A DNA stretch of 26,187 nucleotides, taken from positions 1 to 26,187 of IMG/VR virus record IMGVR_UViG_3300042922_000237; one strand, given 5' to 3'. Shown one piece after another: positions 6,376-26,187 of this stretch. The number at the start of each line of letters is the position of its first letter. The first letter of the stretch is position 1. The position numbers were made by a program, and so were the translations under genes. Below the pieces are notes generated by a model. It saw only the letters and a program-made list of their open reading frames with translations, searched no databases and was not told where the DNA came from. The stretch is from a virus.

Positions 6376-6389
6376 AAAGAGGTGATACC

Positions 6390-7877: not shown

Positions 7878-7892
7878 TTAAAAATTTTATAA

Positions 7893-7940: not shown

Positions 7941-7957
7941 ATTAAGGAGGTAAATAA

Positions 7958-8395: not shown

Positions 8396-8398
8396 TTT

Positions 8399-8426
8399 AA
8401 AGGTGGCTTATGCTGCCTTTATTTTA
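8399..8426 (+). terminator. Hairpin after the tail tube gene
   Basis: AAAGGTGGC (8399-8407) pairs with GCTGCCTTT (8412-8420) through nine base pairs, two of them G-U wobbles, around a TTAT loop. ATTTT follows. This is a weak terminator or mRNA-stabilising hairpin. Confidence 0.55.
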
Positions 8427-8444
8427 ATATAAGGAGAATACAAA

Positions 8445-9043: not shown

Positions 9044-9046
9044 TAA

Positions 9047-9604
9047 TTGAGTTTTACCTCCATCTTAGGTGGACTATATTCCACTTTAAAAACAGCTGGA
9101 TTGATTGGTAATAATCCAACCGTATATAGTTTTTCTAATATAACAGCTTCAATTTCACATCCGAGCACTGGTGCAATATCTACTAATAATAATGGTATAG
9201 GTTCTCTTGGCATATCAATGCTTACTGAACGAACTACACACGATATATCAGCAGATGGCGGTATATTTATTTTAAAAGTAGATGGAAACAACGGAATAGT
9301 TAATCTGCAAGTACAGCAAACATCTGAATTACATAGATGGCTGTTACAACTTGCAGGTTTTTTAATGACACCAACTATTGATCATAGTACTTGGGCTGAA
9401 ATTAATATGTCAATTCAAGATAATAATATGACTACTTTATACAACTGCACTGGTGGTAGTTTATTAAAAATACCTGATTTAACATTTTCGGCACAAGGGC
9501 AATCCGTAACATGGATTATTTATTTTGCTGATATTACCCTAACAACAACATCTGCATCAACAGATTTATCAAATATCCAAGGAGTTATACGCTCTATCTT
9601 ATAG
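9047..9604 (+). CDS. Second DUF3277-like tail tube paralogue
   Basis: A 185-residue protein with a TTG start 3 nt after the preceding stop. Residues about 27-165 align by eye with the tail tube protein at 7958-8395: YSFS, GIG, ERTxHDxxADG, the QVQQTSxL segment, a WxxxxxxI region and AQGQxxTW all recur in the same order. It adds about 25 residues at the N-terminus and a longer C-terminus. Lying between the chaperone and the tape measure, it may be a tube initiator, a hub adaptor or a minor tube subunit. The homology is seen in the sequence; the role is inference. Confidence 0.75.
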   Translation: MSFTSILGGLYSTLKTAGLIGNNPTVYSFSNITASISHPSTGAISTNNNGIGSLGISMLTERTTHDISADGGIFILKVDGNNGIVNLQVQQTSELHRWLLQLAGFLMTPTIDHSTWAEINMSIQDNNMTTLYNCTGGSLLKIPDLTFSAQGQSVTWIIYFADITLTTTSASTDLSNIQGVIRSIL

Positions 9605-9618
9605 GAAGGAGGTAAATT

Positions 9619-11700
9619 ATGTTAGATGTCATAAAAAGTTATTTAGTATCATTAGGATTTTCGGTTAATGACGCTGAATTTAATAAAGCTACTCAATCAA
9701 TGAATGATTTAAATAAAACTATAACATCCGTAACGGCAGGAATGGCGAAACAATTTGCAGTTGCAGGAACGGAAGTTGTTGGAGTTTTAGCAACAATAAC
9801 AGGAGCTACAGGAGCACTCATAAAAGAGACTGCTGAACTTGATATGCAGTATCAGAAATTTGCACTTCGCATGTGGATGGCGAAAGACTCTGCTAAAGAT
9901 TTACAAGTTACATTAAAGGCTATGGGTGAATCTGTAGAAGACGTTGCATGGATCCCAGAACTTAGACAACAGTATTTCCAACTGATAAATCAGGGAAATG
10001 AAATGAAAACCCCTGGTGATGCCGGAGAACAGCTTAAATATATTAGAAGTATATTGTTTGAGTTTACGCGACTAAAATTAGAAGTTAGTTATGCAGCCGA
10101 ATGGATTAGTTATTATTTAATTAAATATTTGTCAGGGCCACTTGCTAAAATAAAAGAATCTATGCAAGGACTCAATGGTTGGATTGTGCAAAAAATGCCA
10201 GAATGGACAAATAAAGTCGCAAAAGTATTATCAATGATTGTCACTTTATTTATTAACGTCGGAAGATTTATTTACGATGCATTTATGAGCGTAGAAAGGT
10301 TCTTTATGGCATTCCCAAAAGGGTTACGACTTGCATTAGGAGCAATTGCAGCATTAACACTAGCATTTAAAATGAATCCAATATTATTAGCTTTAACAAC
10401 AGCTATATTGCTGATTGACGATTTTTATTCCTATCTTGATGGTCGCAAAAGTTTAAAAATGTTACAACCAGTTTGGGCTAAAATTATAGAATGGTCAAAA
10501 GATTTTAATAAATTAATTATTGATAATAAAGAAAATTTAAGTGATTTATGGAATGAATTTTTAAAATCAGCAACTTATAAAAATATGATTGATGCGCTTA
10601 AGAATTCATTTGAAGCTTTAAAAGAAGGATTATTAGCACTAAAAGAAATTTTTGACGAATTTATGATTGATTTAGGGAAAAGCATAGAGAAAAAAGGCTT
10701 AATACCTGAATTTAAAATGTTTATGCAAACAACATCTCAAGCCGTTGATGATGTTGCTGAATCAATAAAAAAATTAATGATACAATTACATCTTTTATCG
10801 AACGATACTCAAACTAAAAGTTTTATGCAATGGTTTTCAGATGAGATTGCTAAAATAGCTAAAAATACAATGATTTTAGGCGAAGTTTTAAGTCATGTAT
10901 TTTCTGCCGTAGCGAAAGCTGCCGTTGGCGATGTTAAAGGCGCAACTAAAGAAATGACTCAAGCAATGGTAGGAGTAGTTAGATACACTGGTGAAAATAA
11001 AGATTCTATGTTTTTGATTAATACCGATAATGGCGGAATAACAAACGATGCTGCCGGGCGTGATTTACTTCGAAGAAAAATTGCTCAACAAGAATCGCAT
11101 GGTGATCCACAAGCATTAAGTTATGATGAAGCTCATTTCGGCAAATATCAATTTGGACAAAGTACATGGGATAGTGCCGCTAGTGATGCTAATAGACCAG
11201 ACTTAGTGGGAATTGACCCAAGAAACGTAAGTGAATCCGATCAAGATTTAGTTGCTCAAACATATATAAATGAATTAATGGATAAGTTTGGCGGTGATGC
11301 TGCACGAGTTGCAGGATCTTGGTATGCCGGTGAAGGTTCTGGGGAATGGTCAGAAGCAGCTAGAAATAGAAAGCAAGTAAGTGACAATGGTTTAGTCGGT
11401 CCTAGTGTAAATGAATATGCAATGGGCGTTCTTAAACAGCAACCAACTATGATGTCATATACAGGCATGGCACAAAATGGCATGAGCACTCTAGCTGGTT
11501 CATATGCCCAACCAATGCAAAATATATATAATACTTCTGCTGGCGAAGGTAATGTAATAATTGAAAGCATTAACTTATCATTTGGCGGAACAAATGCTAC
11601 AGTCGCAGAAATTCAACAGGCAACAATTGCAGGTGTCCAACAAGCAACTGGTAAACAAGTAGCACGTCAAACACGTGACATGCAAGGGGTGTTTGCATGA
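9619..11700 (+). CDS. Tail tape measure protein with lysozyme-like transglycosylase domain
   Basis: A 693-residue protein. The N-terminus is coiled-coil-like (about residues 1-60). Hydrophobic segments at about 205-225 and 235-270 are typical of tape measures and may enter the membrane during injection. Long charged helices follow (about 285-440). Residues about 480-600 form a lytic-transglycosylase-like domain: QQESHGDP with candidate catalytic Glu492, GKYQFGQSTW (about 508-517) and an AGSWYAGEG segment. The protein sets tail length and the enzyme domain would open peptidoglycan during infection. At about 1.5 angstroms per residue, 693 residues suggest a tail near 100 nm. It overlaps the next gene by 4 nt. 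Confidence 0.88.
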   Translation: MLDVIKSYLVSLGFSVNDAEFNKATQSMNDLNKTITSVTAGMAKQFAVAGTEVVGVLATITGATGALIKETAELDMQYQKFALRMWMAKDSAKDLQVTLKAMGESVEDVAWIPELRQQYFQLINQGNEMKTPGDAGEQLKYIRSILFEFTRLKLEVSYAAEWISYYLIKYLSGPLAKIKESMQGLNGWIVQKMPEWTNKVAKVLSMIVTLFINVGRFIYDAFMSVERFFMAFPKGLRLALGAIAALTLAFKMNPILLALTTAILLIDDFYSYLDGRKSLKMLQPVWAKIIEWSKDFNKLIIDNKENLSDLWNEFLKSATYKNMIDALKNSFEALKEGLLALKEIFDEFMIDLGKSIEKKGLIPEFKMFMQTTSQAVDDVAESIKKLMIQLHLLSNDTQTKSFMQWFSDEIAKIAKNTMILGEVLSHVFSAVAKAAVGDVKGATKEMTQAMVGVVRYTGENKDSMFLINTDNGGITNDAAGRDLLRRKIAQQESHGDPQALSYDEAHFGKYQFGQSTWDSAASDANRPDLVGIDPRNVSESDQDLVAQTYINELMDKFGGDAARVAGSWYAGEGSGEWSEAARNRKQVSDNGLVGPSVNEYAMGVLKQQPTMMSYTGMAQNGMSTLAGSYAQPMQNIYNTSAGEGNVIIESINLSFGGTNATVAEIQQATIAGVQQATGKQVARQTRDMQGVFA

Positions 11701-12359
11701 ATTTAGCTAATGTATGGACGTTATACAATAACATTCGCAGTATTACATCATCTACTAGTCTAGTTGCAGGCGCAACACAACCTTGGACACCTACACAATG
11801 GGCGCAATTATCATCTAAAGACCTTGTCTATTTAAAAACCAACAAATCTAATATTGGCGGTTTATTTTTTGATGCGGTTTTTCACGAAGAAACAGTCAAT
11901 AGTATTAAAATTACAGATCATCCAGTCCAAAACGGTAGCAATATTGTTGACCATTCATATGTACAACCAACTACATTAACAATGGATATTGGTGTTTCTG
12001 ATTCTATGGGTAGTATCCTTGATGGACAATTTGCAGGAAGTTATACTAAGTCTGTTTCAGCTTATCAGATGTTACTTGCTTTACAACAATCACGAATACC
12101 TATCGAAGTTCATACACGATTAAATCATTATTATAATATGCTAATTGAGCAAATTACTGCACCTGATGATTATAAGACTTTGCATGGATTAAAATGCTCT
12201 GTACAGATGAAAGAAATTTTTGTAGTTGAAGTTAGTACAACAACCGTTTCAGCAAGAGCACAGACTAGTGGCGGCTCGTCAGGTGGTACAGCTCAACCAG
12301 TACAAGCAACTGGTTCTATATTGGCAGAAGCAAGCGAAGCGGCAACGGGGAGTAATTAA
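11697..12359 (+). CDS. Dit-like baseplate protein
   Basis: A 220-residue protein starting inside the tape-measure stop (ATGA). Its core reads GGLFFDAVFHEETVNSIKIT, then DHPVQNGSNIVDHSYVQPT (about residues 54-92) and a TLTMDIGVSDSMGS stretch, matching the N-terminal domain of Dit-like baseplate proteins. A helical YQMLLALQQSRIPIEVHTRL region follows. The last 35 residues are low-complexity Ser/Gly/Ala. It should form the ring where the tail tube meets the baseplate. Confidence 0.75.
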   Translation: MNLANVWTLYNNIRSITSSTSLVAGATQPWTPTQWAQLSSKDLVYLKTNKSNIGGLFFDAVFHEETVNSIKITDHPVQNGSNIVDHSYVQPTTLTMDIGVSDSMGSILDGQFAGSYTKSVSAYQMLLALQQSRIPIEVHTRLNHYYNMLIEQITAPDDYKTLHGLKCSVQMKEIFVVEVSTTTVSARAQTSGGSSGGTAQPVQATGSILAEASEAATGSN

Positions 12360-12361
12360 TT

Positions 12362-12691
12362 ATGTATCAAATTATACCATTAACAAACGATCCAAACAAA
12401 ACAATACAGACAACAGTCGAAGTTAATAATGCAAATATTACATTAAAATTATTCTTTCATTATAATGAAATGGCGAATTATTGGTGTATGAGTATAACGA
12501 ATTCAAACAATACATTGTTAATTGATTCATTGCCACTTGTAACTGGTGTTTATCCATCTGCAAACATTTTAGGGCAATATAGTTACCTTGGCATTGGTAG
12601 CGCATATCTGATAAAAATAACTCAAAGCACTCTTGATTATCCAGACGATAACACTTTAGGAACTACTTTTCAATTAGTGTGGTCGTCATGA
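12362..12691 (+). CDS. Baseplate plug protein, Pam3 gp18-like
   Basis: A 109-residue beta protein. The start, MYQIIPLTNDPNKTIQTTVE, and the FHYNEMANYWCMSITN segment (about residues 32-47), plus LIDSLPLVTGVYPSANIL, resemble the small baseplate plug family described from cyanophage Pam3 (gp18-like). It begins 2 nt after the Dit-like gene and overlaps the next gene at ATGA, so it is part of the tightly coupled baseplate cluster. Confidence 0.72.
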   Translation: MYQIIPLTNDPNKTIQTTVEVNNANITLKLFFHYNEMANYWCMSITNSNNTLLIDSLPLVTGVYPSANILGQYSYLGIGSAYLIKITQSTLDYPDDNTLGTTFQLVWSS

Positions 12692-13623
12692 GCAATTTTC
12701 TATATGGACGTAAATATCAAATATTAGTTGCTAAATCAGATGGTACTGCTTTAGATGTTTCCAATTTAAGATGCACATTTAGAATTGAAAAAACATATCA
12801 TTCAGTTGCAAATTATTCCGAAATAACTATTTATAATCTATCAGCAGAAACCGAAGGAACAATTATCAATGAATACAATCGTGTAATCGTAAATGCAGGA
12901 TATCGAGGTACTGATGCAAATGATAATCCAAAACAATATGGGAAAATATTTGATGGAAATATAATTCAAGTTCTAAGAGATAAGGACGATAATAATGTTG
13001 ATTACAGATTAACGTTACATTGTGGTGATGGCGATAATTTTCTTAATAGCAATTTTATAAAAATGACAATGAATGCAGGAGCTACACATAGACAAGCAAT
13101 TGAAAACATTGCAACTGTAGCAACTGTACCAACTAATATTGCTAAAATTACACCGGATTTAAATCCTATATCTCTTCCACGTGGCAAGGTATTTTTTGGA
13201 GCACCTAAGAAATATTTACGTGAAATAGCATCTGATAACAACGCAAGTTTCTGGGTTGATAATGGTGAAATTCACGTTGAAAAAACTACAGATACAGCAG
13301 GTGAAGCTGTTGTAGTTACTCCAACAACAGGCCTAATTGGCACTCCTCAAATGGTGCAAGATGGTATAACAATTAAGATGTTGTTAAATGCAAATATAGG
13401 CTTAATGAGTATGATTAAACTTGATAATTCAAATATTCGTCAAATGAAACAACAGATAGGTCAAGTGCCTGTTATGTTAGATCAAGACGGACAATATCAA
13501 GCCTATAAAATCGTGCATGAAGGTGATACTAGAGGTCAAAACTGGTACACAGAAATAACAGGTGTTTCAAGATATGGGAAAATACCAATTATGCTTGCGG
13601 CAGGTAATCAAAATGCACATTAA
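12688..13623 (+). CDS. Baseplate hub protein (gp27/protein D-like)
   Basis: A 311-residue protein counted from ATG 12688, chosen because it overlaps the previous stop as ATGA. An in-frame GTG at 12679 is a weaker option. Features include LYGRKYQILVAKSDG at the start, LRCTFRIEKTYHSVANYSEITIYNLS (about residues 21-46), a KIFDGNIIQV strand, and the ASFWVDNGEIHV region typical of hub proteins of the gp27/D type. It would form the trimeric hub to which the spike (next gene) attaches. Confidence 0.75.
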   Translation: MSNFLYGRKYQILVAKSDGTALDVSNLRCTFRIEKTYHSVANYSEITIYNLSAETEGTIINEYNRVIVNAGYRGTDANDNPKQYGKIFDGNIIQVLRDKDDNNVDYRLTLHCGDGDNFLNSNFIKMTMNAGATHRQAIENIATVATVPTNIAKITPDLNPISLPRGKVFFGAPKKYLREIASDNNASFWVDNGEIHVEKTTDTAGEAVVVTPTTGLIGTPQMVQDGITIKMLLNANIGLMSMIKLDNSNIRQMKQQIGQVPVMLDQDGQYQAYKIVHEGDTRGQNWYTEITGVSRYGKIPIMLAAGNQNAH

Positions 13624-13635
13624 GAAGGTGTTTGA

Positions 13636-14238
13636 ATGCTAACAATAGCACAGCGATTAGAGAATGAAAATGAAATGCAACGGCTATCTATTGAGGATTA
13701 TTTAAAAAATCTTCGTGTTGCATGTCCTGGAATTATACAAAGTTATGATGAATCAGCGCAAACAGTTACAGTGTTACCAGCAATTAAAGATAAAATAAAA
13801 ATCAATGGCAATGTTTCAGACGAAGCATTGCCGTTATTAGTTGATGTACCTGTTTACTTTCCTTCTGGTGGTGGTTATTCGTTAACATTTCCGATTGTTG
13901 CAGGTGATGAATGCTTGGTAGTATTTGCTGATTCGTGCATTGATGCATGGTGGCAATCCAGCGGTGTTCAAAACCAACTTGATAAGAGAAGACATGACTT
14001 GTCAGATGGATTTGCATTTGTAGGCTTTAAAAGTAAACCTAACGCAGTACCAGCAGGGGCAGGAACAACTTTACAAGGATCATCTGGAAGTATAAATTTC
14101 AACGGTGGAACAATCACAATAACGGATGCAAATGTAATTATAAATTCAAGTAATGTAACAATAGCTGGTAAAGATTTTTTGTCACATACACATGGTGGAG
14201 TACAGCCGGGCGGCGGTAATACTGGTGGCGTATCATGA
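13636..14238 (+). CDS. Membrane-puncturing spike protein, Gp138 family
   Basis: A 200-residue protein. Residues about 15-130 resemble the Gp138 N-terminal OB-type domain (RVACPGIIQSYDESAQTVTV, VPVYFPSGGGYSLTFPIVAGD, and a WWQSSG motif). Residues about 145-180 are a beta-helical stalk with alternating residues. The tip has a SHTHGGVQPGGGNTGG motif whose HTH histidines could bind a metal ion, as in other spike tips. It pierces the outer cell layers upon sheath contraction. It overlaps the next gene by 4 nt. Confidence 0.82.
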   Translation: MLTIAQRLENENEMQRLSIEDYLKNLRVACPGIIQSYDESAQTVTVLPAIKDKIKINGNVSDEALPLLVDVPVYFPSGGGYSLTFPIVAGDECLVVFADSCIDAWWQSSGVQNQLDKRRHDLSDGFAFVGFKSKPNAVPAGAGTTLQGSSGSINFNGGTITITDANVIINSSNVTIAGKDFLSHTHGGVQPGGGNTGGVS

Positions 14239-14615
14239 GTATGAAATATAGAATGCTATCACCCACAACAAATGGAGCAGGTTCAGGAGATTATAGTTTT
14301 GGTAATGGATTAAGTAATTTTGTTACAGAAGTAAACGCAGTAGCACAAGCCGTATATACTCGTTTATATCTACTCTACGGTGAATGGTGGGAAAATGCAG
14401 AGGATGGTTTACCGTTTTGGCAAAAAATTATTGGTGTGTCTGGTAAACCACAAAATATTGCAGCAATTGATTTGATTTTTCAAACTAGAATATCAGAAAC
14501 AAAAGGCGTTAAAAGCATTGTGAATTATAGTAGTACATGGGATTCTCAAACAAGAAAATATAGTTTTACATGCACTATTGACACAGATTACGGAACTACT
14601 ACATTAACAATTTAA
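14235..14615 (+). CDS. Baseplate wedge protein, gp25/W-like
   Basis: A 126-residue protein. The start MKYRMLSPTTNGAGSGDYSFG, the AVAQAVYTRLYLLYGEWWEN segment (about residues 35-54), DGLPFWQKIIG, and IDLIFQTRISETKGVKSI match the GPW/gp25-like wedge proteins. They anchor and initiate the sheath at the baseplate. It starts in the spike gene's stop (ATGA). A terminator-like hairpin follows it. Confidence 0.8.
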   Translation: MSMKYRMLSPTTNGAGSGDYSFGNGLSNFVTEVNAVAQAVYTRLYLLYGEWWENAEDGLPFWQKIIGVSGKPQNIAAIDLIFQTRISETKGVKSIVNYSSTWDSQTRKYSFTCTIDTDYGTTTLTI

Positions 14616-14630
14616 TTTATAACATTTTTA

Positions 14631-14659
14631 AAACTGATCAATTAGATCAGTTTATTTTT
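14631..14659 (+). terminator. Terminator-like hairpin in the baseplate cluster
   Basis: AAACTGATC (14631-14639) and GATCAGTTT (14645-14653) form a perfect 9-bp stem with a 5-nt loop, followed by A and five T. It separates the wedge gp25-like gene from the J-like gene. Confidence 0.7.
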
Positions 14660-14681
14660 ATGCCCTAAGGAGGTGTAAATT

Positions 14682-15860
14682 TTGTCATATACAGCACCTA
14701 CAATAACATCCGCAGGATTAACAATACCGTTATATAGTGACGTATTAGCAGATTTAATTGAACTTGCAAAATCCATTTATGGTGATGATATCTATTTAGG
14801 ACAAGATAGCTTAGATTATCAATTTATTAGTATCTTTGCGCTTAAACTAACAGATGCATATAATACAGCTCAATTAATTTATAACAACAGAAGTCCATCT
14901 ACTGCAATTGGTAGCGCACTTGATGGAATAGTAAAAATAAATGGACTAGAACGCAAATCAGCTTCATATTCAACTTGTCAAGTAACCTTAACAGGGACTT
15001 ATGGGACTACTATAACAGGCGGTATAGTTGCTGACGTTGCAGGTAATTCATGGTCATTACCAACCCCAATAACAATTCCGATTGGCGGAACATTAACAGT
15101 ATCGGCTACATGTCAAACGCTCGGTGCAATTACGGCAACGATTGGGCAAATATCAACGATATCAACACCGACGCAGGGATGGACTTCTGTTACTAATTCA
15201 ATTCCGGCAGTTGCAGGACAGGCGGCAGAAGTTGACTCGCAATTACGATCAAGACAAGCAATTAGCACACAATTACCATCACAATCATTGCTAGGCGGAA
15301 CAATCGCAGGAATCGCAGGTATAGCTGATGTAGTAAGATATAAAGTTTATGAAAACGATACAGATGCAACAGATTCAAATGGCATACCTTCACATTCGAT
15401 ATGCGTCGTAGTTGAAGGTGGAACTGACTCAGATATTGCAAGCGAAATATATTATCGTAAAAATGGCGGTTGTGGTGTGTATGGAACAACTTCTATAAAT
15501 GTTGCCGATCCAACTTATGATACTACAACAACGATAAAATTCTATCGCCCAACATATGTTCCAATATTTGCGACATTAGGCGTACATCCATTAGCAGGTT
15601 ACACAACAGCAAATACAACAGCAATTCAAACGGCAATTACAAATTATTTAAATAGTTTAGCTATTGGCGAAGAACTAACAATTTCCGCATTATGGGGTGT
15701 GGCTATGGCGACAATGCCAGATATGACTAATCCAGTATTTTCATTAAAAACAGTAGTCGCAGGTACTGCAATAGGAAGTCAGACAACATCTGATATAGTA
15801 ATTGCTTTTAATGCTGTGACGCAAGGAGTAACGGCAAATGTCGTTATTAATTTAGTATGA
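14682..15860 (+). CDS. Baseplate J-like wedge protein
   Basis: A 392-residue protein with a TTG start 6 nt after AAGGAGGTG (14667-14675). The helical N-terminus (SDVLADLIELAKSIYG, residues about 19-34, and LDYQFISIFALKLTDAYN) followed by ALDGIVKINGLERKSAS is typical of Baseplate_J (P2 gpJ/T4 gp6-like) proteins. The middle is beta-rich. A LRSRQAISTQLPSQSLLGG helix and a SICVVVEGG strand follow, as in the family. With gp25-like and DUF2612 proteins it should form the baseplate wedge. Its stop overlaps the next start (ATGA). Confidence 0.85.
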   Translation: MSYTAPTITSAGLTIPLYSDVLADLIELAKSIYGDDIYLGQDSLDYQFISIFALKLTDAYNTAQLIYNNRSPSTAIGSALDGIVKINGLERKSASYSTCQVTLTGTYGTTITGGIVADVAGNSWSLPTPITIPIGGTLTVSATCQTLGAITATIGQISTISTPTQGWTSVTNSIPAVAGQAAEVDSQLRSRQAISTQLPSQSLLGGTIAGIAGIADVVRYKVYENDTDATDSNGIPSHSICVVVEGGTDSDIASEIYYRKNGGCGVYGTTSINVADPTYDTTTTIKFYRPTYVPIFATLGVHPLAGYTTANTTAIQTAITNYLNSLAIGEELTISALWGVAMATMPDMTNPVFSLKTVVAGTAIGSQTTSDIVIAFNAVTQGVTANVVINLV

Positions 15861-16507
15861 GTAAACCATTAGATTATTATTTAGGATTAGTCACTTCTGA
15901 ATATCAAAATTCGCCAAAATTCTTAGCGTGGCTACAAGGATTTATAGAACATATATCTGATGCAACAACTGTTTTGGATAGCATGGATGCTTGCTTTGAT
16001 ATTGATATAGCTGTAGGCAATCAACTCGACATATTAGGAGTTATTACCGGACAAGATCGACAAGTAAACTTTCAACCAACAAATGGCGGTTCGCCTATTC
16101 TTGATGATGATAATTATAGGATTTTATTGAAAGCAAAAATTTTAAAAAATCAATGGAATGGTTTAAATCAATCTATCGCTGAGTTGTGGAAAATATTATT
16201 ACCACAAACTACAATTTTAGTACAAGACAATTTAGATATGACAGAAAATGTTTATATTGGCGGTGATTTAAATCAAACTATACGCGATTTAATTCGGAAT
16301 GGATATATCGTTCCAAAGCCACAGGGAGTTAGAATAAATTATTTTTATTTTGGTGGTGCTCCATTCTTTGGCTTTGATTTAGATAATGGTTATATAGCTG
16401 GTTTTGATAAAGGTTCATGGGTTCACGATAACGATCCTAAAGCGTTCGGTTTTGATTTAGATAATAGTATTATTTCAGGACTTGACACAGGGGCATGGGC
16501 AGATTAA
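15857..16507 (+). CDS. DUF2612 baseplate wedge protein (tail protein I-like)
   Basis: A 216-residue protein. Residues about 1-155 match the DUF2612 pattern: KFLAWLQGFIEHISDATTVLD, a GNQLDILGVITGQDR motif (about 55-68) and DDDNYRILLKAKILKNQWNG. It is the likely equivalent of P2 gpI. The C-terminus has a duplicated unit, FGFDLDN at 171-177 and again at 197-203, each followed by an I-x-G-x-D-x-G-x-W pattern. This may dock the fibre encoded next. Confidence 0.8.
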   Translation: MSKPLDYYLGLVTSEYQNSPKFLAWLQGFIEHISDATTVLDSMDACFDIDIAVGNQLDILGVITGQDRQVNFQPTNGGSPILDDDNYRILLKAKILKNQWNGLNQSIAELWKILLPQTTILVQDNLDMTENVYIGGDLNQTIRDLIRNGYIVPKPQGVRINYFYFGGAPFFGFDLDNGYIAGFDKGSWVHDNDPKAFGFDLDNSIISGLDTGAWAD

Positions 16508-16522
16508 CTAAGGAGGGATATT

Positions 16523-17602
16523 ATGGCAGGTAGTAATAATTTTTTACAATGGAATCCAGCTGAAAATAATATGCAAACAGATGCACAGTATTTGGCAGAT
16601 TCCATGAGATTAAACGGTGCAACGGCACAAATTTATCCTAGTAATTTACATAATAAATTTGCATATCAAGCAACTTCATTTATTTATGCATTGGCACAAA
16701 TGTTAGCAAATAAAGGATATACTGTAAGCGATACAAGTTTATCTTCGTTAATAAGTGTATTTAATTCAGCATTAAATAACAAAGAGTGGTTAAAAAGTAC
16801 AGCTTATGCGGTTGGTGATGTAGTTGATAGCGTAAACTTGCCACAATGGGCGCAAGCAGTTTGTACTACAGCAGGTACAACAGGTTCTAGCGAACCAACT
16901 TGGGGGACAACGGTTGGTGCTAGTATTACGGATGGTACAGTAGTATGGTTGATTGTTAATAAGGTAAATAGTATTCCGTATGGTCAGCAAATTTATAGTA
17001 CAGCAGGAACTTATACATTTGTTGCGCCAATAGATGCACGTTATAAAGTTATTGCAGTCGGCGGTGGTGGCGGTGGTGGTGGTGCACTTGGTTCATCTAG
17101 TATTTCGGCTGCTGGCGGTGGCGGTGGTGGCGGTGGTGTATCAATTAAATATATATACATTACTAAAGGAACTAGCATTTCTGTAACAACAGGCATAGGA
17201 GGCACTGGTGGAACTGGTGAAGTTAGCGGAAATACTGGTGGAACAACATCGTTTGGTTCATATTGTTCCGCTACTGGTGGCGGTGGTGGCAGTTTTGGCG
17301 GAACAACAGCTAATAGATTTGGTGGAGGTTCGCCTGGAGGTGTTGGTTCGAACGGTGATATTAATGGTTATGGCGGATCTGGTACAGGGCCAGTAGTAGC
17401 TAATCCATTACTAGCAAACACTGGCGGCAATGGAGGTAATGGTGGAAGCTCTTATTTTTCTGGAAGTTCTGGCGTATCCAATAATGGAACTATTATAAAT
17501 GGTATTTTGGGATCTGGAGGTTCTGGAGCTGATGCAACTAATCTAACTGGATCATACACTGGCGGTGTTGGTGGTGCTGGAGTTGTAGTTATCGAATGGT
17601 AA
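16523..17602 (+). CDS. Tail fibre/adhesin with glycine-rich C-terminal domain
   Basis: A 359-residue protein. Residues about 1-85 are helical and would attach to the baseplate. Residues about 90-150 form a module with EWLKSTAYAVGDVV and EPTWGTTVG, a small carbohydrate-binding-like unit seen in phage fibres. Residues about 165-359 are a glycine-rich domain with poly-Gly runs, GGTGGTG and GGNGGNGG blocks and a closing GAGVVVIEW strand, similar in style to adhesins built from polyglycine helices (T2/S16 gp38 type). It is the best receptor-binding candidate. The poly-Gly runs are coded by repeated GGY codons at about 17060-17083 and 17114-17137. Confidence 0.78.
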   Translation: MAGSNNFLQWNPAENNMQTDAQYLADSMRLNGATAQIYPSNLHNKFAYQATSFIYALAQMLANKGYTVSDTSLSSLISVFNSALNNKEWLKSTAYAVGDVVDSVNLPQWAQAVCTTAGTTGSSEPTWGTTVGASITDGTVVWLIVNKVNSIPYGQQIYSTAGTYTFVAPIDARYKVIAVGGGGGGGGALGSSSISAAGGGGGGGGVSIKYIYITKGTSISVTTGIGGTGGTGEVSGNTGGTTSFGSYCSATGGGGGSFGGTTANRFGGGSPGGVGSNGDINGYGGSGTGPVVANPLLANTGGNGGNGGSSYFSGSSGVSNNGTIINGILGSGGSGADATNLTGSYTGGVGGAGVVVIEW

Positions 17603-17614
17603 GGAGTGATATAA

Positions 17615-18436
17615 ATGAGTAAATGGGCTAGAGTTGTAGATGGTATAGTAGTTGAAACTACAAATATTGATCCTATGGGAAGATTTACTGATGAATTAGT
17701 TGCGCAATTTAAAGAATGTCCAGAAGAAGTAGAACAGGGATGGCAATATGTAAATGGAGTATTTTCAATTCGGACACAATCATATGTAATTCGTAACGGT
17801 ATATATATGTATGATTATTACCAGTCGGGCGATACAGTAGTTACAGAGCGACCAACAGCGACAAATACATATACATCATACGAATGGGGTACTATCCCAG
17901 CAATCGCAGGTAAACGTAGTTACGCAATAACAACTAATTTTGTTGCAGGCGATACATTAACTTTATGTGGAGTAACATTAACTCTAGGAACTGATGTAAT
18001 TGGTCAAGATACAGCAACTACAGCAACAAATCTACAAACTGTATTGTCTGCAAATACAACAATTAACGCATTATATGCAGTTACGGTGGCAGATACAACA
18101 ATTACACTAACCGAAATAACGGCAGGTGGCGAGAATGCTCCTAGCGAAGCAACAACGACAGGGACAGGCGTTATTGCAAACGGTACTGCAACAACTAGTA
18201 CACCACAAACTACAGGGTGGAAAATTGACTTAGCAACTTCGTTAGATGCATTAAATTCATCTTACGATACTGGTAAGAAAAGAATGCATGAAGCGCATTC
18301 AACCGTTTTAATAGCATTAGCACTTGGTAAAATAACGCAAGAACAGTCGGTAGAACGAATAAATGTCGTCGCAAGTGAGTACGGAGTAATGTGGAATGAT
18401 ATTTTAGCAAAACAGGAGGTACTTAAAAATGGATAG
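17615..18436 (+). CDS. Tail fibre-associated or fibre-assembly protein
   Basis: A 273-residue protein preceded by AAGGAGTGAT. The N-terminus (MSKWARVVDGIVVETTNIDP, then CPEEVEQGWQYVNGVFS) resembles the first domain of phage fibre and fibre-assembly proteins that read 'V-x-x-G-x-V...G-W-x-Y-x-x-G'. Residues about 105-200 are Thr/Ala-rich and look like a beta domain. Residues about 205-270 are helical (LDALNSSYDTGKKRMHEA and a QEQSVERINVVASEYGVMW segment). Lying right after the adhesin, it is likely to assemble or cap the fibre. Whether it is virion-borne is unknown. Confidence 0.65.
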   Translation: MSKWARVVDGIVVETTNIDPMGRFTDELVAQFKECPEEVEQGWQYVNGVFSIRTQSYVIRNGIYMYDYYQSGDTVVTERPTATNTYTSYEWGTIPAIAGKRSYAITTNFVAGDTLTLCGVTLTLGTDVIGQDTATTATNLQTVLSANTTINALYAVTVADTTITLTEITAGGENAPSEATTTGTGVIANGTATTSTPQTTGWKIDLATSLDALNSSYDTGKKRMHEAHSTVLIALALGKITQEQSVERINVVASEYGVMWNDILAKQEVLKNG

Positions 18437-18578
18437 ACAATGCCCAATGGATAGAAAAACTATGATAACTACTATTATTGATGGTCAAGAATACCATCAA
18501 TGTCCTGAGTGTGGATATATGGAGTATAATGAAGTTTTATCATGTAATACAAATGTAACAGATATAACGGAAAACTAA
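18429..18578 (+). CDS. Small zinc-ribbon-like protein, 49 residues
   Basis: A short gene with AGGAGG at 18414-18419 and ATG 9 nt further on, overlapping the previous gene's end by 8 nt. The product has C5, a CPEC knuckle (C26/C29) and C39 or near it, suggesting a small metal-binding fold. No family is recognised. The strong ribosome site and the fit between neighbours support it being real. Confidence 0.6.
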   Translation: MDRQCPMDRKTMITTIIDGQEYHQCPECGYMEYNEVLSCNTNVTDITEN

Positions 18579-18582
18579 GCTT

Positions 18583-18849
18583 ATGTATACTGCAAAATAT
18601 TTAATATATGCTTATATACTTATTACGTTTTCATTATTAATGTTAAGTTTTATATTGACTTTAATCATAATTAGTATGAAATCAAAAATTAAAAGTAAAG
18701 TACCAATTATAAATATAATATCCGATAATATATCTAAGGAAATATACAGCTCATTGAAAATAGTTGGCGTTACACTAACTATAGAGCAACAAAGAGCCTT
18801 TGAATTAAATGTAAGACAAAAACATAAGGAAATGGGGTTTAAGCTGTGA
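18583..18849 (+). CDS. Small single-pass membrane protein, unknown function
   Basis: An 88-residue protein with one long hydrophobic segment (about residues 6-32), a basic linker (MKSKIKSKV) and a soluble helical tail ending in RQKHKEMGFKL. It begins 4 nt after the small zinc-ribbon gene and overlaps the next gene as GTGA. Its ribosome site is weak, so it probably relies on coupled translation. Position next to lysis genes suggests a lysis accessory protein. That is inference. Confidence 0.6.
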   Translation: MYTAKYLIYAYILITFSLLMLSFILTLIIISMKSKIKSKVPIINIISDNISKEIYSSLKIVGVTLTIEQQRAFELNVRQKHKEMGFKL

Positions 18850-19217
18850 ATCAAGGGATAACAAGTATGATAACGGCATTAGCAGAAGCACCACCAAGCG
18901 TTGTAACAATAATTTGTGTTGTTATTGTGATACTTCCAATTATCGCATTGATTGCATATTGGGGCAGAGAGATGCCAAAGGCATTTATGGCAATAAGTAA
19001 GTCAATGAATTCATTAGAAATGTTAGCAACAGCTCATCAAGGCGATACAAATCATCAAGGAACTATAATTACAGCAGTTTGCCATGATGTAAAAGAAATT
19101 AGGGCAGATTTAACAGAAGTACAGCAAAACATGGTAACGAAACAAGAATTGCAAGGATTGAATGGACGAGTTGATAGTGTAGTTAATACCGTTGGTAGGA
19201 TAGAAGGACGCATTTAA
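18846..19217 (+). CDS. Membrane protein with coiled coil, lysis-module accessory
   Basis: A 123-residue protein with a GTG start overlapping the previous stop (GTGA). One membrane helix (about residues 18-39) is followed by a long helical and coiled-coil part (about 45-123) with a VKEIRADLTEVQQNMVTKQE segment. The design, one membrane anchor plus coiled coil, recalls holin-associated proteins such as XhlA, although there the anchor is C-terminal. No direct family match is claimed. Confidence 0.6.
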   Translation: MNQGITSMITALAEAPPSVVTIICVVIVILPIIALIAYWGREMPKAFMAISKSMNSLEMLATAHQGDTNHQGTIITAVCHDVKEIRADLTEVQQNMVTKQELQGLNGRVDSVVNTVGRIEGRI

Positions 19218-21729: not shown

Positions 21730-22911
21730 ATGGAAAATAAAATTAGTAGCAAATTAATATATCTTGATGGGTTACGCGGAGTTGCTTCTGTAATGGTTTT
21801 TTTGTTGCATTTTATATTAGCATTTTTGCCAGCTATGCACCGAGGAACACCAGAACAAGCCCATAATAACATTGAAATATGGTTTGCAAGTAATCCGATC
21901 AATATTATTTATGATGGCCATTTTGCTGTTTATATTTTTTTTATTTTAAGTGGATTTGTTTTAAGTGCAGGGTTTTTTATTAAAAAAGATAAAAAATATT
22001 TAGTAAAGTCTTTTTTTAAAAGATATATTCGCTTAGAAATTCCTATTTTTGTTTCAATTTTTATATCATATTTGTTTTTGAAATTTCATATATATAATAA
22101 TGTAGAAACTTCTATAATTACGTTTTCGTTTGATTGGTTAAAAAACTTTTGGCAATTAGAAGCAAACTTTATTAACATGTTTAAACAATCATTTGTGGAT
22201 GTTTTTTTAAAAAACGAATATACATATAATCCAAATTTATGGACAATGCAGATTGAATTATTTGGTTCTTATTTAGTATATTCGTTTTTATTCGTTTTTG
22301 GTAGACGATCAATTAGGGGATTTGGTTATATAATTTTATTAATTATATTCTACGATACATTCTATTTAGCGTTTATTTTGGGCATGATTTTAAGTGATAT
22401 TTATAATAATAATAATAATAAATATTTGCACTATGTTAATAAATGCAAATATTGCGGATGGTTATTTCTAATAATAGGAATTATTTTAGGTTCATTTACT
22501 TTAATTAATATTGATCATACTTTTTATCGCTTTTTAAAAATAGATTTCTTGTCAAATAAATATAGAATGATAGGATCATTTTTTATTGTTTTGTCAGTTA
22601 TTAGTTCATATAATTTACAAAAAATATTATCAATGCATATATTCCAGTTTTTAGGAAAGATATCGTTTTCTTTATATTTATTACATTTATTAATTTTGGG
22701 GTCTTTTTCCTGTAATTTGTTTTTATATTTAATAAACATTGTTTCTTATAATATGAGCGTATTTATTGTATTTATCTCTACAACAATTGTAGCAATTATA
22801 TCATCATGGTTTATGTATAAGTATGTAGATCTATTTAGTATAAAAACATCTGCTTTTTTCGTGACAAAATTGACAGAACTTCTGAAACAAATTAAATCAA
22901 TACACCAATAA
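21730..22911 (+). CDS. Acyltransferase-3 family membrane O-acyltransferase (conversion gene)
   Basis: A 393-residue integral membrane protein with about ten hydrophobic segments. The signature LDGLRGVAS (residues 12-20) with Arg16, then His27 in FLLHF, FFILSGFVLSAGFF (about 70-83) and LWTMQIELFG (Trp171, Glu176) are diagnostic of the OafA/acyltransferase-3 family, which adds acyl groups, commonly acetyl, to surface sugars. It lies between the late terminator and the attachment region and has its own promoter and AGGAG site. It probably modifies host surface polysaccharide in lysogens, blocking superinfection or changing serotype. The acceptor substrate cannot be told from sequence. Confidence 0.85.
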   Translation: MENKISSKLIYLDGLRGVASVMVFLLHFILAFLPAMHRGTPEQAHNNIEIWFASNPINIIYDGHFAVYIFFILSGFVLSAGFFIKKDKKYLVKSFFKRYIRLEIPIFVSIFISYLFLKFHIYNNVETSIITFSFDWLKNFWQLEANFINMFKQSFVDVFLKNEYTYNPNLWTMQIELFGSYLVYSFLFVFGRRSIRGFGYIILLIIFYDTFYLAFILGMILSDIYNNNNNKYLHYVNKCKYCGWLFLIIGIILGSFTLINIDHTFYRFLKIDFLSNKYRMIGSFFIVLSVISSYNLQKILSMHIFQFLGKISFSLYLLHLLILGSFSCNLFLYLINIVSYNMSVFIVFISTTIVAIISSWFMYKYVDLFSIKTSAFFVTKLTELLKQIKSIHQ

Positions 22912-22969
22912 TAATATCTCTCGATTTACCATTCACAATTCCTCTAGCTGCATTTAATTCACTTTTCAT
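22892..22969 (-). CDS. Minus-strand micro-ORF, possible truncated gene
   Basis: On the minus strand AGGAAGTGA (22981-22973) precedes ATG at 22969, giving a 25-residue peptide beginning MKSELNAARGIVNG and ending at TAA 22892-22894 inside the acyltransferase 3' end. A TATAAT at 22987-22982 lies directly upstream, so close that the transcript might start within the ribosome site. It looks like the start of a small phage protein cut short when the acyltransferase segment was acquired. Low certainty. Confidence 0.35.
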   Translation of the reverse strand: MKSELNAARGIVNGKSRDIIIGVLI

Positions 22970-23217
22970 GCGTCACTTCCTATTATAAGTATTTCTAAAG
23001 ACATATGAAAATTGATTCGCTAGATACTTACTAGTAACAAAAACCCTTTTAAACCCTAATAAATTCAGTGCTTTGTATTATGATTTTGTTAATTTTTCAG
23101 TATCTATATAATCAATAAATCCAGTATAACCAATAAATTAAAGCCTAGATAAACTATTTAAAAACATATAAAAATCGAATCGCTAGTAACAAACTAGTAA
23201 CGTACTAGTAACATAGA
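22912..23217. other. Probable attP region with integrase-type repeats
   Basis: This 306-bp stretch has no full-length gene. Two imperfect 23-bp direct repeats (23001-23023 and 23164-23186, 20 of 23 identical, ending TCGCTAG) flank an AT-rich middle. ACTAGTAAC occurs at 23030-23038, 23193-23201 and 23204-23212, with the variant GCTAGTAAC at 23182-23190. The last three are exactly 11 bp apart, one helical turn. Placed at the 3' end of the integrase gene, these look like integrase arm sites of an attachment site, with the crossover core between the repeats. The core itself cannot be identified without the bacterial target. Confidence 0.6.
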
Positions 23218-24240
23218 TTATATCATATTAATAGCATCTACAAGCTGTTGTATTGTTTTATGAGTATATGTTTTTTCAGTTTCATCACTAACGGCATGTC
23301 CTAATATTTTTTTTGTTAATAGTTTATTGATAACTACGTTATCTAACATAGTAGCGCATGTATGCCTACCATCATGTGGCAAGTGATCCATATTCAATAT
23401 TTGCATTAGTGGATCCCAGTAGTAATTCCTTAGTTTTGGATAGCTTAATGGTTTATTTTCAAATTCTATTAAAAATTTATTTTTTGGATTATACAATTCT
23501 TCGATAAATTTAAATATTTTTTCTGATATTGGTATAGCCCTATTCTTGCCTGCTTTGGTTTTTATACCCCCCCTCATGTAACGTTTATCTAAATGCACAT
23601 TAGCTGTCTCTATTTTTAATAATTCAGTAGGACGTAATCCAGTATAGCAAAGTATCAATGCAAATTTCACAGCTATATCGTCAGTATTTTTCCATAGTAC
23701 TACAAGCTCTTCTTTAGTAAATGCCTTATGTATATCGCTTTTTTCTTCTGGTGACTCTAATTTTACATATTTAGAATAATCTTTTTTAACAAGATCGTTT
23801 TCCATCGCTAAACTAAAGAGAAATCCGAATAATATTTTCATATTACTTTTTGATGCATAGCTTTTATCCCAGTTGTTTAATTCTTTTTGCATATGTTCAG
23901 CTCTTATATCAATAAATTTCATACTTACAAATTTATCACTGCATGCATTACGTGCAGCTCTATAACCGCTTGTTATCTCTTTCCCATTATCAGTGTATTT
24001 TCTCTTTACCCATAGCTCGTAAATAGCCGAAAAAGTTAAATCTCTATTTGACATATCGTATGGATCCGCATTGTATGAAGCCAAAGTCATCATTGCGTCT
24101 TGCGATTTTTCAAAATATCCTAAGATGTTATATATCGGATGACCTTTTTCGTTAAATCCTTCTGTTTTTCTAGCAACAAATGGCTTTCTTCTGTTACCTT
24201 TTAATTTAAATACACTTCCATAACCGTTTGGTAATCTCAC
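23218..24240 (-). CDS. int: Tyrosine-recombinase integrase
   Basis: A 340-residue protein counted from GTG at 24240, chosen because GAGGTGG lies 6 nt upstream and the product then begins LPNGYGSVFKLKGNRR, the usual start of this family; an ATG at 24255 is in frame but overlaps that ribosome site. An arm-binding N-terminus is followed by a core-binding domain (about 70-165) and a catalytic domain with Arg203 (YTGLRPTE), HDGRH (His289, Arg292), LGH (His315) and nucleophile Tyr325 (TYTHKT). All key residues are present. It integrates and excises the phage at the adjacent repeat region. It is probably cotranscribed with the 98-residue gene upstream. Confidence 0.92.
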   Translation of the reverse strand: MRLPNGYGSVFKLKGNRRKPFVARKTEGFNEKGHPIYNILGYFEKSQDAMMTLASYNADPYDMSNRDLTFSAIYELWVKRKYTDNGKEITSGYRAARNACSDKFVSMKFIDIRAEHMQKELNNWDKSYASKSNMKILFGFLFSLAMENDLVKKDYSKYVKLESPEEKSDIHKAFTKEELVVLWKNTDDIAVKFALILCYTGLRPTELLKIETANVHLDKRYMRGGIKTKAGKNRAIPISEKIFKFIEELYNPKNKFLIEFENKPLSYPKLRNYYWDPLMQILNMDHLPHDGRHTCATMLDNVVINKLLTKKILGHAVSDETEKTYTHKTIQQLVDAINMI

Positions 24241-24281
24241 AATGAACCACCTCATTTCTTTAATATATTTTTTATTGTTCG

Positions 24282-24578
24282 TTAGAAATACTTTGACTTT
24301 CCTTTATGTCCTTCTGGAACAATTGGCTTTTCATGTAAATATTGAAAATCTTTTCGGTAGTGTCGATGGTTGTGTAAAGAAAAGTAAATATAGTTTTTAT
24401 CATCAACCTCTAACGCCCGAAGAAAATAAGCTTTTTTCCCGCCATGCATTACCGTTGCACCGAAAACATAGTCTTTTTCAAAATTAACTTCGTACAATAT
24501 TATTTGTAACATCGAAGCAATAGCCAAATAATCTTCCCGATCTTTATACTTTTCAATCAATTCTTTTTTATTAACCAC
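24282..24578 (-). CDS. Unknown 98-residue protein upstream of integrase
   Basis: Start GTG at 24578 is preferred because AAAGGAG lies 8 nt upstream; a GTG at 24587 overlaps that site. The protein begins with a charged helix (NKKELIEKYKDREDYLAIASM), has a beta-like middle (DYVFGATVMHGGKKAYFL) and a His-rich SLHNHRHYRKDFQYLH segment. No family is recognised. The integrase starts 41 nt after its stop, so the two form an operon from the promoter at 24635-24663. The TTTGTCGAAT motif overlaps its ribosome site. It could help recombination directionality or immunity, but that is only position-based. Confidence 0.65.
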   Translation of the reverse strand: MVNKKELIEKYKDREDYLAIASMLQIILYEVNFEKDYVFGATVMHGGKKAYFLRALEVDDKNYIYFSLHNHRHYRKDFQYLHEKPIVPEGHKGKSKYF

Positions 24579-24590
24579 AATAAACACTCC

Positions 24591-24600
24591 TTTGTCGAAT
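24591..24600 (-). promoter_or_regulatory. ATTCGACAAA motif, copy 1
   Basis: TTTGTCGAAT on the plus strand, i.e. ATTCGACAAA read along the leftward gene, overlapping its ribosome site. It is a perfect inverted partner of copy 2, and together they flank the two interleaved promoters. It contains TGTCGAA, identical to the Spo0A box consensus. Confidence 0.55.
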
Positions 24601-24621
24601 TTTGTATTGTTTTGCGTTTTA

Positions 24622-24650
24622 TTGAAACTTACCTATAGTATGTGTACAAT
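24622..24650 (+). promoter_or_regulatory. Rightward promoter for the 45-residue gene
   Basis: TTGAAA (24622-24627), a 17-nt spacer and TACAAT (24645-24650), expected start near 24657. This excludes the ATG at 24642 as a start and supports GTG 24705. Confidence 0.65.
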
Positions 24651-24663
24651 AAAGATAAGTCAA
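24635..24663 (-). promoter_or_regulatory. Leftward promoter for the 98-residue gene and integrase
   Basis: On the minus strand TTGACT (24663-24658), 17 nt, TACTAT (24640-24635). It is interleaved with a rightward promoter on the other strand. Consensus-based. Confidence 0.6.
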
Positions 24664-24668
24664 TCGCG

Positions 24669-24678
24669 ATTCGACAAA
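24669..24678 (+). promoter_or_regulatory. ATTCGACAAA motif, copy 2
   Basis: Lies about 12 nt after the expected start of the rightward transcript and 12 nt before the ribosome site of the 45-residue gene. Probably an operator or leader element. Confidence 0.55.
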
Positions 24679-24704
24679 TTAATAAAAAATGGAGATGCTT
24701 ATTT

Positions 24705-24842
24705 GTGATAGTGAATGAAGTTGACAACGATATTGAGCTAAAAGTTGAGCTGTTAAAAGGAATCGGTCTGCTTAATGATAATCATAAAAATGAATTATTA
24801 GAAATAATACATAACTATGTAATCAATGAAATAAAAAAATAG
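24705..24842 (+). CDS. Unknown 45-residue protein convergent with the repressor
   Basis: GTG at 24705 follows GGAGA (24691-24695) by 9 nt and lies downstream of a good promoter. The product (MIVNEVDNDIELKVELLKG..., rich in Glu, Leu and Asn) is helical and acidic in its first half, with no known motif. Its stop lies 2 nt from the end of the repressor gene on the other strand, leaving no room for a terminator. It may be an antirepressor or other switch peptide. That is inference from position. Confidence 0.55.
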   Translation: MIVNEVDNDIELKVELLKGIGLLNDNHKNELLEIIHNYVINEIKK

Positions 24843-24844
24843 AA

Positions 24845-25273
24845 TTATAACATATCTTTAATAGCTTTTCTGTCTTCGGCAGAAAGGCTTTTTATTATTT
24901 CTATAGCTTTTTCTTTTTCTTCTTCTTCACGCATTCTAGCAACGGTTCTTGTTATTAAATCAAATAATTCATTTTGACTCTCTTCGGAGAGCTTTTTTAT
25001 CGCTTCCATATCAATAGATATTTGGTTGTTTACATCAATAGAAGAAAGTTCTTCCATAACTAAACTAATTTTTTCTAAAGAAGATTCGTCAGAAACTAAA
25101 TAATCAACAGAAACACCAAAATAATCCGCTATTTTTTTTAGCGTCGAGTTTCTAGGAACAGCTCCGTTTTGCCAACTATCAATATTTGATTTACTCATTT
25201 TTAAAGTTGTTATCATTTTAGTTATTGATATTCCATCTCTTTTACATAAAGCTAAAACATGTTTATAAAACAT
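24845..25273 (-). CDS. XRE-family (CI-like) phage repressor
   Basis: A 142-residue protein. Residues about 5-60 form an HTH_3 domain (ISITKMITTLKMSKSNIDSWQNG, then TLKKIADYFGVSVDYLVS). The rest is helical and acidic (about 65-142) with a charged REEEEKEKAIEIIKSLSAEDRK segment, presumably for oligomerisation. There is no LexA-like peptidase domain, so induction must differ from lambda. GGGAGGA precedes the ATG. It is transcribed away from the strong rightward promoter and should bind the ATAGRACA repeats between them to keep lysogeny. Confidence 0.88.
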   Translation of the reverse strand: MFYKHVLALCKRDGISITKMITTLKMSKSNIDSWQNGAVPRNSTLKKIADYFGVSVDYLVSDESSLEKISLVMEELSSIDVNNQISIDMEAIKKLSEESQNELFDLITRTVARMREEEEKEKAIEIIKSLSAEDRKAIKDML

Positions 25274-25296
25274 TCAAAAATCCTCCCCAGTTTAAA

Positions 25297-25336
25297 ATAG
25301 AACAAAATAGGATAAAAATATATTGACAATAGGACA
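25297..25336. promoter_or_regulatory. Candidate repressor operators (ATAGRACA-type repeats)
   Basis: ATAGAACA (25297-25304), ATAGGATA (25307-25314) and ATAGGACA (25329-25336) are direct repeats whose starts lie 10 and 22 bp apart, about one and two helical turns. The last lies inside the rightward promoter spacer. An inverted copy, TGTTCTAT, is at 25430-25437. Fits repressor binding, not proven. Confidence 0.5.
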
Positions 25337-25351
25337 ATACCGAACTATAAT
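25323..25351 (+). promoter_or_regulatory. Perfect-consensus early rightward promoter
   Basis: TTGACA (25323-25328), exactly 17 nt, TATAAT (25346-25351): an exact sigma-70/sigma-A consensus in the divergent region from the repressor gene. It should drive the early lytic genes unless the repressor is bound. Confidence 0.85.
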
Positions 25352-25568
25352 GAAGACATCCCAAAGAAAAGACAATAAAAAACACACCTCCTGCAAAAAT
25401 AAATTTTGGGAGAATAAAAAGTTCAGTTATGTTCTATTATGTTTCCCTAAGCAAGAATTATTATACAACAAAACCGAACTAAACACAACTACTGGAATAA
25501 AATTGGTACAGAAAGGAGAACAAAATAAGTAATTAGTCCTAAATAAATTAAGAAAGAGGATGAAATTT
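25352..25568 (+). other. Long untranslated leader of the early transcript
   Basis: About 210 nt between the promoter and the first supported gene hold no credible gene. A small hairpin is possible at 25388-25412 (CTCC and CAAAA pairing with TTTTG and GGAG). A lone AAAGGAG at 25512-25518 has no start codon in range. Short frames here lack ribosome sites. Confidence 0.45.
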
Positions 25569-25799
25569 ATGAGTGAACAAAAAAGTGCAGTTCAACCGCT
25601 AGAACGGTTAAACCGCAAAAAGGAAATACTTCTAAATTGTTTTCCAGAACGAAGATTAAACGAGTTGGTCGAAGAAATTACAGTATTCCTCCAAGGGAGG
25701 AATTTAGATGCAACCGGTGGTATAACAATGGATTTAATTGAATTTACCTTACTAAGTATTAGTCTTGATCTTGAGTTGAAGACTCTTGCCAAAAGATAG
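25569..25799 (+). CDS. First early gene, unknown 76-residue protein
   Basis: ATG 25569 is chosen because AAAGAGG (25553-25559) lies 9 nt upstream; ATG 25560 abuts that site. The product starts MSEQKSAVQPLERLNRKKEI and is helical, with a conspicuous LLNCFPERRLNELVEEI segment and a hydrophobic C-terminal helix. It takes the place where Cro usually sits but shows no clear helix-turn-helix. Its last 41 nt overlap, tail to tail, the minus-strand zinc-ribbon gene. Confidence 0.65.
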   Translation: MSEQKSAVQPLERLNRKKEILLNCFPERRLNELVEEITVFLQGRNLDATGGITMDLIEFTLLSISLDLELKTLAKR

Positions 25800-26022
25800 A
25801 TTTTGCGATCATTTTTGGTTCATTTCGTTCTAAATGATATTTAATAATGTGCTGATTGAAATCTTTAAAACTTCCCATTAAATTTCGTAACGTATGATGT
25901 GAATCTAAATCCATTTCCAGATGACAAAACGGACATCGAATAGGTTCATCATGTTTTGTATCTTCAAAATTAACATCAAACAATTTATTACATTGACATT
26001 TAATTTTAACAACCGAATACAT
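25759..26022 (-). CDS. Zinc-ribbon protein, 87 residues
   Basis: Start ATG 26022 is set by AAAGGGGGTGAT just upstream; a longer reading from 26049 would ignore it. A CQC pair (C9/C11) and CPFC (C30/C33) suggest one zinc site in the first 35 residues. Residues 45-87 are helical with several histidines and aromatic residues (FKDFNQHIIKYHLERNE). Family not recognised. It runs against the early transcript and overlaps the end of the preceding plus-strand gene, so it may be expressed in lysogens. Confidence 0.6.
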   Translation of the reverse strand: MYSVVKIKCQCNKLFDVNFEDTKHDEPIRCPFCHLEMDLDSHHTLRNLMGSFKDFNQHIIKYHLERNEPKMIAKSIFWQESSTQDQD

Positions 26023-26047
26023 AGTATCACCCCCTTTTAATGGGGAC

Positions 26048-26057
26048 ATTCGACAAA
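26048..26057 (+). promoter_or_regulatory. ATTCGACAAA motif, copy 3
   Basis: Identical to copies 1 and 2. It lies in the divergent gap between the zinc-ribbon gene and the excisionase-like gene, 20 nt before the latter's ribosome site. Confidence 0.55.
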
Positions 26058-26091
26058 ATCCATTAATTACCTTTAGAAAGGAGGAAACAAC

Positions 26092-26187
26092 TTGGGAAAA
26101 TATTTAACCTGTGAAGATGTAGCAAGTTTATATGGAGTAAAAAAACTCACTATTTGGGGTTGGATTAGAGATAAAAAATTAAACGCA
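26092..26187 (+). CDS. Excisionase-like helix-turn-helix protein (partial, cut by window end)
   Basis: TTG at 26092 follows AAAGGAGG (26078-26085) by 6 nt. The visible 32 residues read YLTCEDVASLYGVKKLTIWG and then WIRDKKLNA, the helix-turn-helix 'YLTxxEVAxLxxVxxxTVxxWIRxGKL' pattern of the excisionase/MerR-like helix_turn_helix_17 group. It could be an excisionase or an early regulator. The gene continues beyond the window. Confidence 0.75.
   Translation, partial: MGKYLTCEDVASLYGVKKLTIWGWIRDKKLNA

Follow-up and report, generated by a model that had tools for sequence, protein, structure and literature searches.

Gene organization around the integrase promoter region

The right end of the window (the whole 26,187-nt stretch of DNA analyzed here) carries a leftward integrase operon, a small rightward gene and a repressor gene. 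The first gene of the operon is ORF98 (24282-24578, minus strand), and the tyrosine integrase itself lies at 23218-24255 on the same strand (PF00589, E 1.5e-16; phrog_1, E 5e-37). ORF98 was listed as a 101-amino-acid frame from GTG 24587, and an earlier reading of the DNA without database searches (the sequence-only reading) took that codon as its start. A GTG start is retained but is probably the one at 24578, because AAAGGAG lies 8 nt upstream of it and the homologue in a distantly related prophage, L045, aligns from there. Family searches with ORF98 gave no match, and its predicted structure (pLDDT 46) is too poor to judge. On the other side, ORF45 (24705-24842, plus strand) is a small frame of 45 amino acids with a GTG start and a 90% identical homologue in a third phage, L047. 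No DNA-binding domain was recognized in either ORF98 or ORF45. ORF45 was also considered as a Spo0E-like protein, and no Spo0E match was obtained. A predicted rightward terminator with a TTCG loop (24863-24889, plus strand) would end the ORF45 transcript within the 3' end of the repressor coding sequence; L047 retains this terminator with altered base pairs.

Family searches identified the repressor (24845-25273, minus strand) as a CI-type HTH protein, RstR-like. An early promoter, TTGACA-17-TATAAT (25323-25351, plus strand), matches among CI-type operator repeats (ATAGGACAATACCGAACTA). Farther right, a gene for a small zinc-ribbon-like protein, ORF87 (25759-26022, minus strand; phrog_15404), is divergent from an xis-like HTH_17 gene with a TTG start, of which the window holds the 5' part (26092-26187, plus strand). 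The first bases of the IMG/VR contig G002 (50,912 bp) continue this gene, as read by eye, with a few bases apparently missing between the contigs, and positions 31883-50912 of G002 correspond to window positions 1-19030 at 99.99% identity. Because of this overlap and the continuing HTH_17 gene, the window and G002 are very likely parts of one phage of ~58 kb. Its closest capsid relative (81%) is found in Megasphaera cerevisiae, and further capsid relatives are in other Negativicutes. The GC content of the phage is 0.337, and in a comparison of eight genomes with small samples, GC and tetranucleotide use were nearest to those of the Spo0A-bearing genome G094 (0.349, r 0.805). It is probably a temperate phage of Negativicutes.

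The integrase is mosaic: in the N-terminal part (24102-24255) it closely resembles the integrase of a sister phage, G001, but overall the two proteins are just 42% identical. For this reason, ORF98 and the promoter region seem to travel as a module. Between the integrase gene and an acyltransferase-like gene are four copies of TAGTAAC (23032-23212) that resemble integrase arm sites. A small gene at 22911-22975 that starts MKSELNAARGIVNG is intact in G001 and G003 and has lost its C-terminal part beside the acyltransferase-like gene (21730-22911); the latter gene may have been inserted later. We considered 22928-22975 as an attachment core and rejected it, since it is the start of the small phage gene common to G001 and G003.

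A repeated 10-mer and overlapping divergent promoters

The 10-mer ATTCGACAAA is present in three exact copies, at 24591-24600 (minus strand; TTTGTCGAAT on the plus strand), 24669-24678 (plus strand) and 26048-26057 (plus strand). This is where the sequence-only reading had found them, and as it reported, the window holds no further copy; a motif search of the other ~32 kb of this phage, in G002, added none. The expected number of copies in the window is 0.13, and none of 100 shuffles contained three. The 7-base core TTCGACA/TGTCGAA occurs in the window at the same three sites only, and its count alone is unremarkable because ~2.4 copies are expected by chance. When the clustering test was run post hoc on every possible 10-mer containing three or more G/C, 21% of dinucleotide-shuffled windows contained some 10-mer three times within 1.5 kb, so the 10-mer count alone is only moderate evidence. 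That all three copies lie in leader or promoter DNA is a stronger point than their number. Beyond the 10 bases, no similarity was found among the surroundings of the three copies.

Each copy matches the core of the 0A box at 7/7 positions (TGTCGAA with G2, C4 and G5), and the proposal that the core equals the Spo0A-box consensus agrees with the published consensus and contact bases (PMC3485338). The sequence-only reading also placed each copy just upstream of or overlapping a ribosome site. The left copy, in the ORF98-integrase leader, overlaps the ribosome site of ORF98; no such overlap occurs at ORF45, whose leader contains the right copy, or at the xis-like gene. The third copy, which had been assigned to the xis-like gene, also precedes the leftward ORF87 and could serve either gene. 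An IMG/VR search for the motif pair (TTTGTCGAAT N55-85 ATTCGACAAA) returned 4 contigs, of which the sister phage alone was real; the other three belong to unrelated viruses in which the pair falls within coding sequence.

The region from 24576 to 24708, referred to here as the switch, contains two overlapping divergent promoters that face away from each other. The rightward promoter, TTGAAA-17-TACAAT (24622-24650, plus strand), precedes ORF45 and appears in L045 as TTGTAA-17-TATAAT; the leftward promoter for ORF98 and the integrase, TTGACT-17-TACTAT (24635-24663, minus strand), appears there as TTAACT-17-TACTAA. A dyad, GTCAATCGCGATT[C]GAC (24659-24675), which is a 16-bp palindrome perfect but for one inserted C, overlaps the leftward -35 and also the right copy of the 10-mer. 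The core TGTCGAA inside the left copy (24593-24599, minus strand) begins a series of four TG-starting 7-mers at exact 10-bp steps, recorded on the plus strand at 24593-24629 (TGTCGAA, TGTATTG, TGCGTTT and TGAAACT). 0A boxes are often tandem at 10-bp steps. Here, the first 7-mer alone fits the 0A consensus well, its neighbors matching at only 2-3/7 positions, and four such 7-mers in 10-bp register were found in 0.3% of shuffles. The register could alternatively come from T-rich DNA in helical phase, e.g., curved or UP-element DNA.

Conservation in related phages

Comparison with the sister phage G001 (locus L001) revealed no differences over 121 intergenic positions, compared with 21/306 in ORF98 and 38/187 in the stretch beyond, and both the left and right copies of the 10-mer are identical there. 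In L047, for which the comparison covers 24611-24708, all 98 bases of this interval, including the right copy, are identical, whereas the CI repressor is just 66% identical. Part of the match between G001 and L047 could be due to an assembly break at common sequence, since both contigs end in the shared stretch. We regard a conserved integrase switch as well supported. A pentapeptide-repeat-like gene (RANLRGADL type; L023 1186-1406 and L047 9534-9890) appears to differ in repeat number between sister phages.

The conserved DNA is distinct from the CI operators. The phage has short repeated operators in a second divergent control region 0.7 kb away (25296-25481), but their sequence (ATAGNACA..ACCGAACTA) is unlike the 10-mer, as had been noted before; the ATAGGACAATACCGAACTA-type repeats have no 10-base word in common with the switch and share only one A-rich 9-mer with it. 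Moreover, the repressor next to them differs between sister phages whose switch sequences are identical. Since the CI operators differ and the switch is identical in L047 despite 66% identity in CI, there is support for the suggestion of a second regulator other than the CI-type repressor.

The third copy behaves differently. L047 has no counterpart of window positions 25524-26074, which contain ORF79, ORF87 and the third 10-mer, and its xis-like gene directly follows the CI-controlled promoter. Because this whole segment is missing at the same place, the third copy is, on this comparison, not a fixed part of xis control, and the idea that the 10-mer sets integrase and excisionase-like genes together is not supported. 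A distant relative of ORF87 is present in G006.

When phage records were searched with the DNA of the control region, nothing matched. ORF98 had no relative among phage or plasmid records, draws of 398 genomes from the phylum yielded no second carrier of it, and searches of IMG/VR with an ORF98 alignment and with the L045 ORF98 gave nothing new. An ORF98 relative (47%) was present in 1 of 380 Negativicutes genomes, namely in prophage L045 of G094. The order of genes in L045 is integrase, zinc-ribbon gene, ORF98, switch, small ORF and repressor; its switch aligns with that of the window, and gene order and both promoters are kept. The left box is TGTCGCT in L045, keeping the TGTCG core with G2, C4 and G5. 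The right box is gone (ATTAACAAA); a perfect 16-bp palindrome, GTTAATCGCGATTAAC, occupies its position. Shuffling this region of L045 gave a perfect palindrome of that length in 24 of 2000 cases. The window dyad differs from the L045 palindrome by a matched C/G for T/A change and one inserted C, and on this alignment it is the inserted C that creates the right 10-mer. Across these relatives, the left and right copies are unchanged in the sister phage and the core of the left is kept in L045, but the right is lost in L045 and the third is absent from L047.

L045 also contains five TG-starting 7-mers at 10-bp steps, which occurred in 0 of 3000 shuffles, and an exact 10-mer of its own, with the ORF98 homologue on one side and the zinc-ribbon and integrase genes on the other. 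This 10-mer ends a tandem array, TGTCCTA-TAA-TATCGAA-TTT-TGTCGAA (5/7, 6/7 and 7/7), at 10-bp steps; a neighbor matching at 6/7 or better at that spacing is found at 0.23% of random places.

Candidate regulators of the switch

Spo0A is encoded in three related genomes, G094, G312 and G314, none of which is the proven host of this phage, and in all three of these Spo0A-bearing Negativicutes genomes examined, TGTCGAAT, which carries the same 0A core, lies just upstream of spo0A. The perfect 0A core, this upstream sequence and the tandem array near the L045 integrase make Spo0A a reasonable candidate regulator. The sequence-only reading had invoked host Spo0A control or a phage regulator of like specificity, and the first is plausible, but carriers of relatives of the phage are found both with and without Spo0A. 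Megasphaera cerevisiae has no Spo0A_C domain, nor have two other genomes with capsid relatives; Spo0A is absent from G011, G015 and G253. In addition, Spo0A-bearing genomes showed no excess of ATTCGACAAA compared with the reversed word used as a control.

The reading that we favor, tentatively and at slightly less than an even chance, is that the 10-mers are 0A boxes through which host Spo0A controls the integrase switch. Both promoters would be sigma-A promoters, with leftward RNA from the switch encoding ORF98 and the integrase, and rightward RNA encoding ORF45 and stopping at the terminator inside the repressor gene. Phosphorylated host Spo0A would bind the 10-mers as 0A boxes. The left box would precede the -35 of the ORF45 promoter and fall ~29-38 bp inside the ORF98-integrase transcript; the right box would fall ~13-22 bp inside the ORF45 transcript and immediately precede the -35 of the integrase promoter (distances assume transcription starts 7 bases after the -10). 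Bound Spo0A~P would block one promoter or both in the manner of the abrB roadblock; integrase expression would then depend on the starvation state of the host, and the copy at 26048 may be a third such site. That the host of this phage has Spo0A, that Spo0A binds the switch and in which direction it acts are points that we infer.

The reading of the 10-mers as 0A boxes is weakened by the absence of Spo0A from Megasphaera, the carrier of the closest capsid relative, and by the right copy being the dyad plus a C where the L045 dyad has no box. A rather unlikely alternative is that a phage-encoded regulator (e.g., ORF98, ORF45 or an early G002 protein) binds the switch, its main operator being the dyad GTYAATCGCGATTRAC over the integrase -35 and the 10-mers being secondary half-sites for the same or another phage protein. 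Consistent with this, the dyad overlaps the -35 of the leftward promoter. In L045 it is a perfect palindrome that carries a compensating C/G to T/A change, and in the window a single inserted C is all that interrupts it; ORF98 and the intergenic region stand together in all carriers found with both. We also tried the dyad as a host regulon motif and rejected it for these genomes, since its core matches just one other site in G094, the L045 host genome (two places in all), and has no match in Megasphaera. However, neither small protein has a recognized DNA-binding domain, the CI repressor has other operators, and the 10-mer fits a known host box too well to dismiss.

The missing third-copy segment in L047 and the 21% of shuffled windows that cluster some 10-mer likewise also weaken the case for Spo0A, and they agree with coincidence, which we consider distinctly unlikely. 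The right copy would come from a one-base insertion in the dyad and the left from conserved T-rich DNA flanking the promoter, and the third would have appeared by chance in a segment acquired recently; the right copy is not kept in L045, and the similarity stops at the 10 bases. Chance, however, sits poorly with the location of all three copies in leader or promoter DNA and none in the ~32-kb rest of the phage, with the two flanking copies unchanged in the sister phage and with the exact copy that L045 has in a tandem array of its own integrase operon. It is very improbable that the word acts in RNA, as an untranslated-leader motif that an RNA-binding regulator recognizes or that governs translation. 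It does lie in the same sense ~12-35 bases before the weak start codons of ORF98, ORF45 and xis (GTG, GTG and TTG), but the sense is opposite at the third site if that copy serves ORF87, the corresponding L045 leaders lack the word, and no known RNA-binding protein with such a site was found.

If Spo0A does control the switch, a temperate phage of Gram-negative-walled spore formers uses the starvation and sporulation signal of its host for its integrase genes. This would extend a principle known from virulent Bacillus phage and offer a simple reporter test of a phage reading host development. If the Spo0A reading is false, the conserved switch with its dyad is still a small integrase control module of which we found no description.

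Spo0A boxes in the Bacillus phages phi29 and Nf are reported by Meijer (2005) and Castilla-Llorente (2009), both referenced in PMC9437464. In these phages, the 0A-box core likewise lies in a phage promoter region and could defer phage genes under starvation, and phi29 has Spo0A sites (PMC9437464). Unlike phi29, which is virulent and whose sites hold back lytic genes, the phage described here is temperate, belongs with another bacterial class and has its putative sites flanking an integrase promoter. The broader proposition, that a temperate Negativicutes phage family outside the phi29 group wired its integrase switch to Spo0A through boxes flanking divergent promoters, so that lysogeny choice or stability follows sporulation entry, remains doubtful. 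The abrB and spo0A Pv promoters of Bacillus subtilis likewise have 0A boxes downstream of a sigma-A promoter, in a position where Spo0A acts as a roadblock (PMC12090719), whereas the present switch has one perfect box per promoter with weak neighbors. A further parallel is provided by CtrA sites in phages of Alphaproteobacteria, where a host master response regulator is likewise proposed to report host state from a gap between divergent genes (PMC9437464), although regulator and motif differ and the proposed outcome is lytic deferment rather than integrase control.
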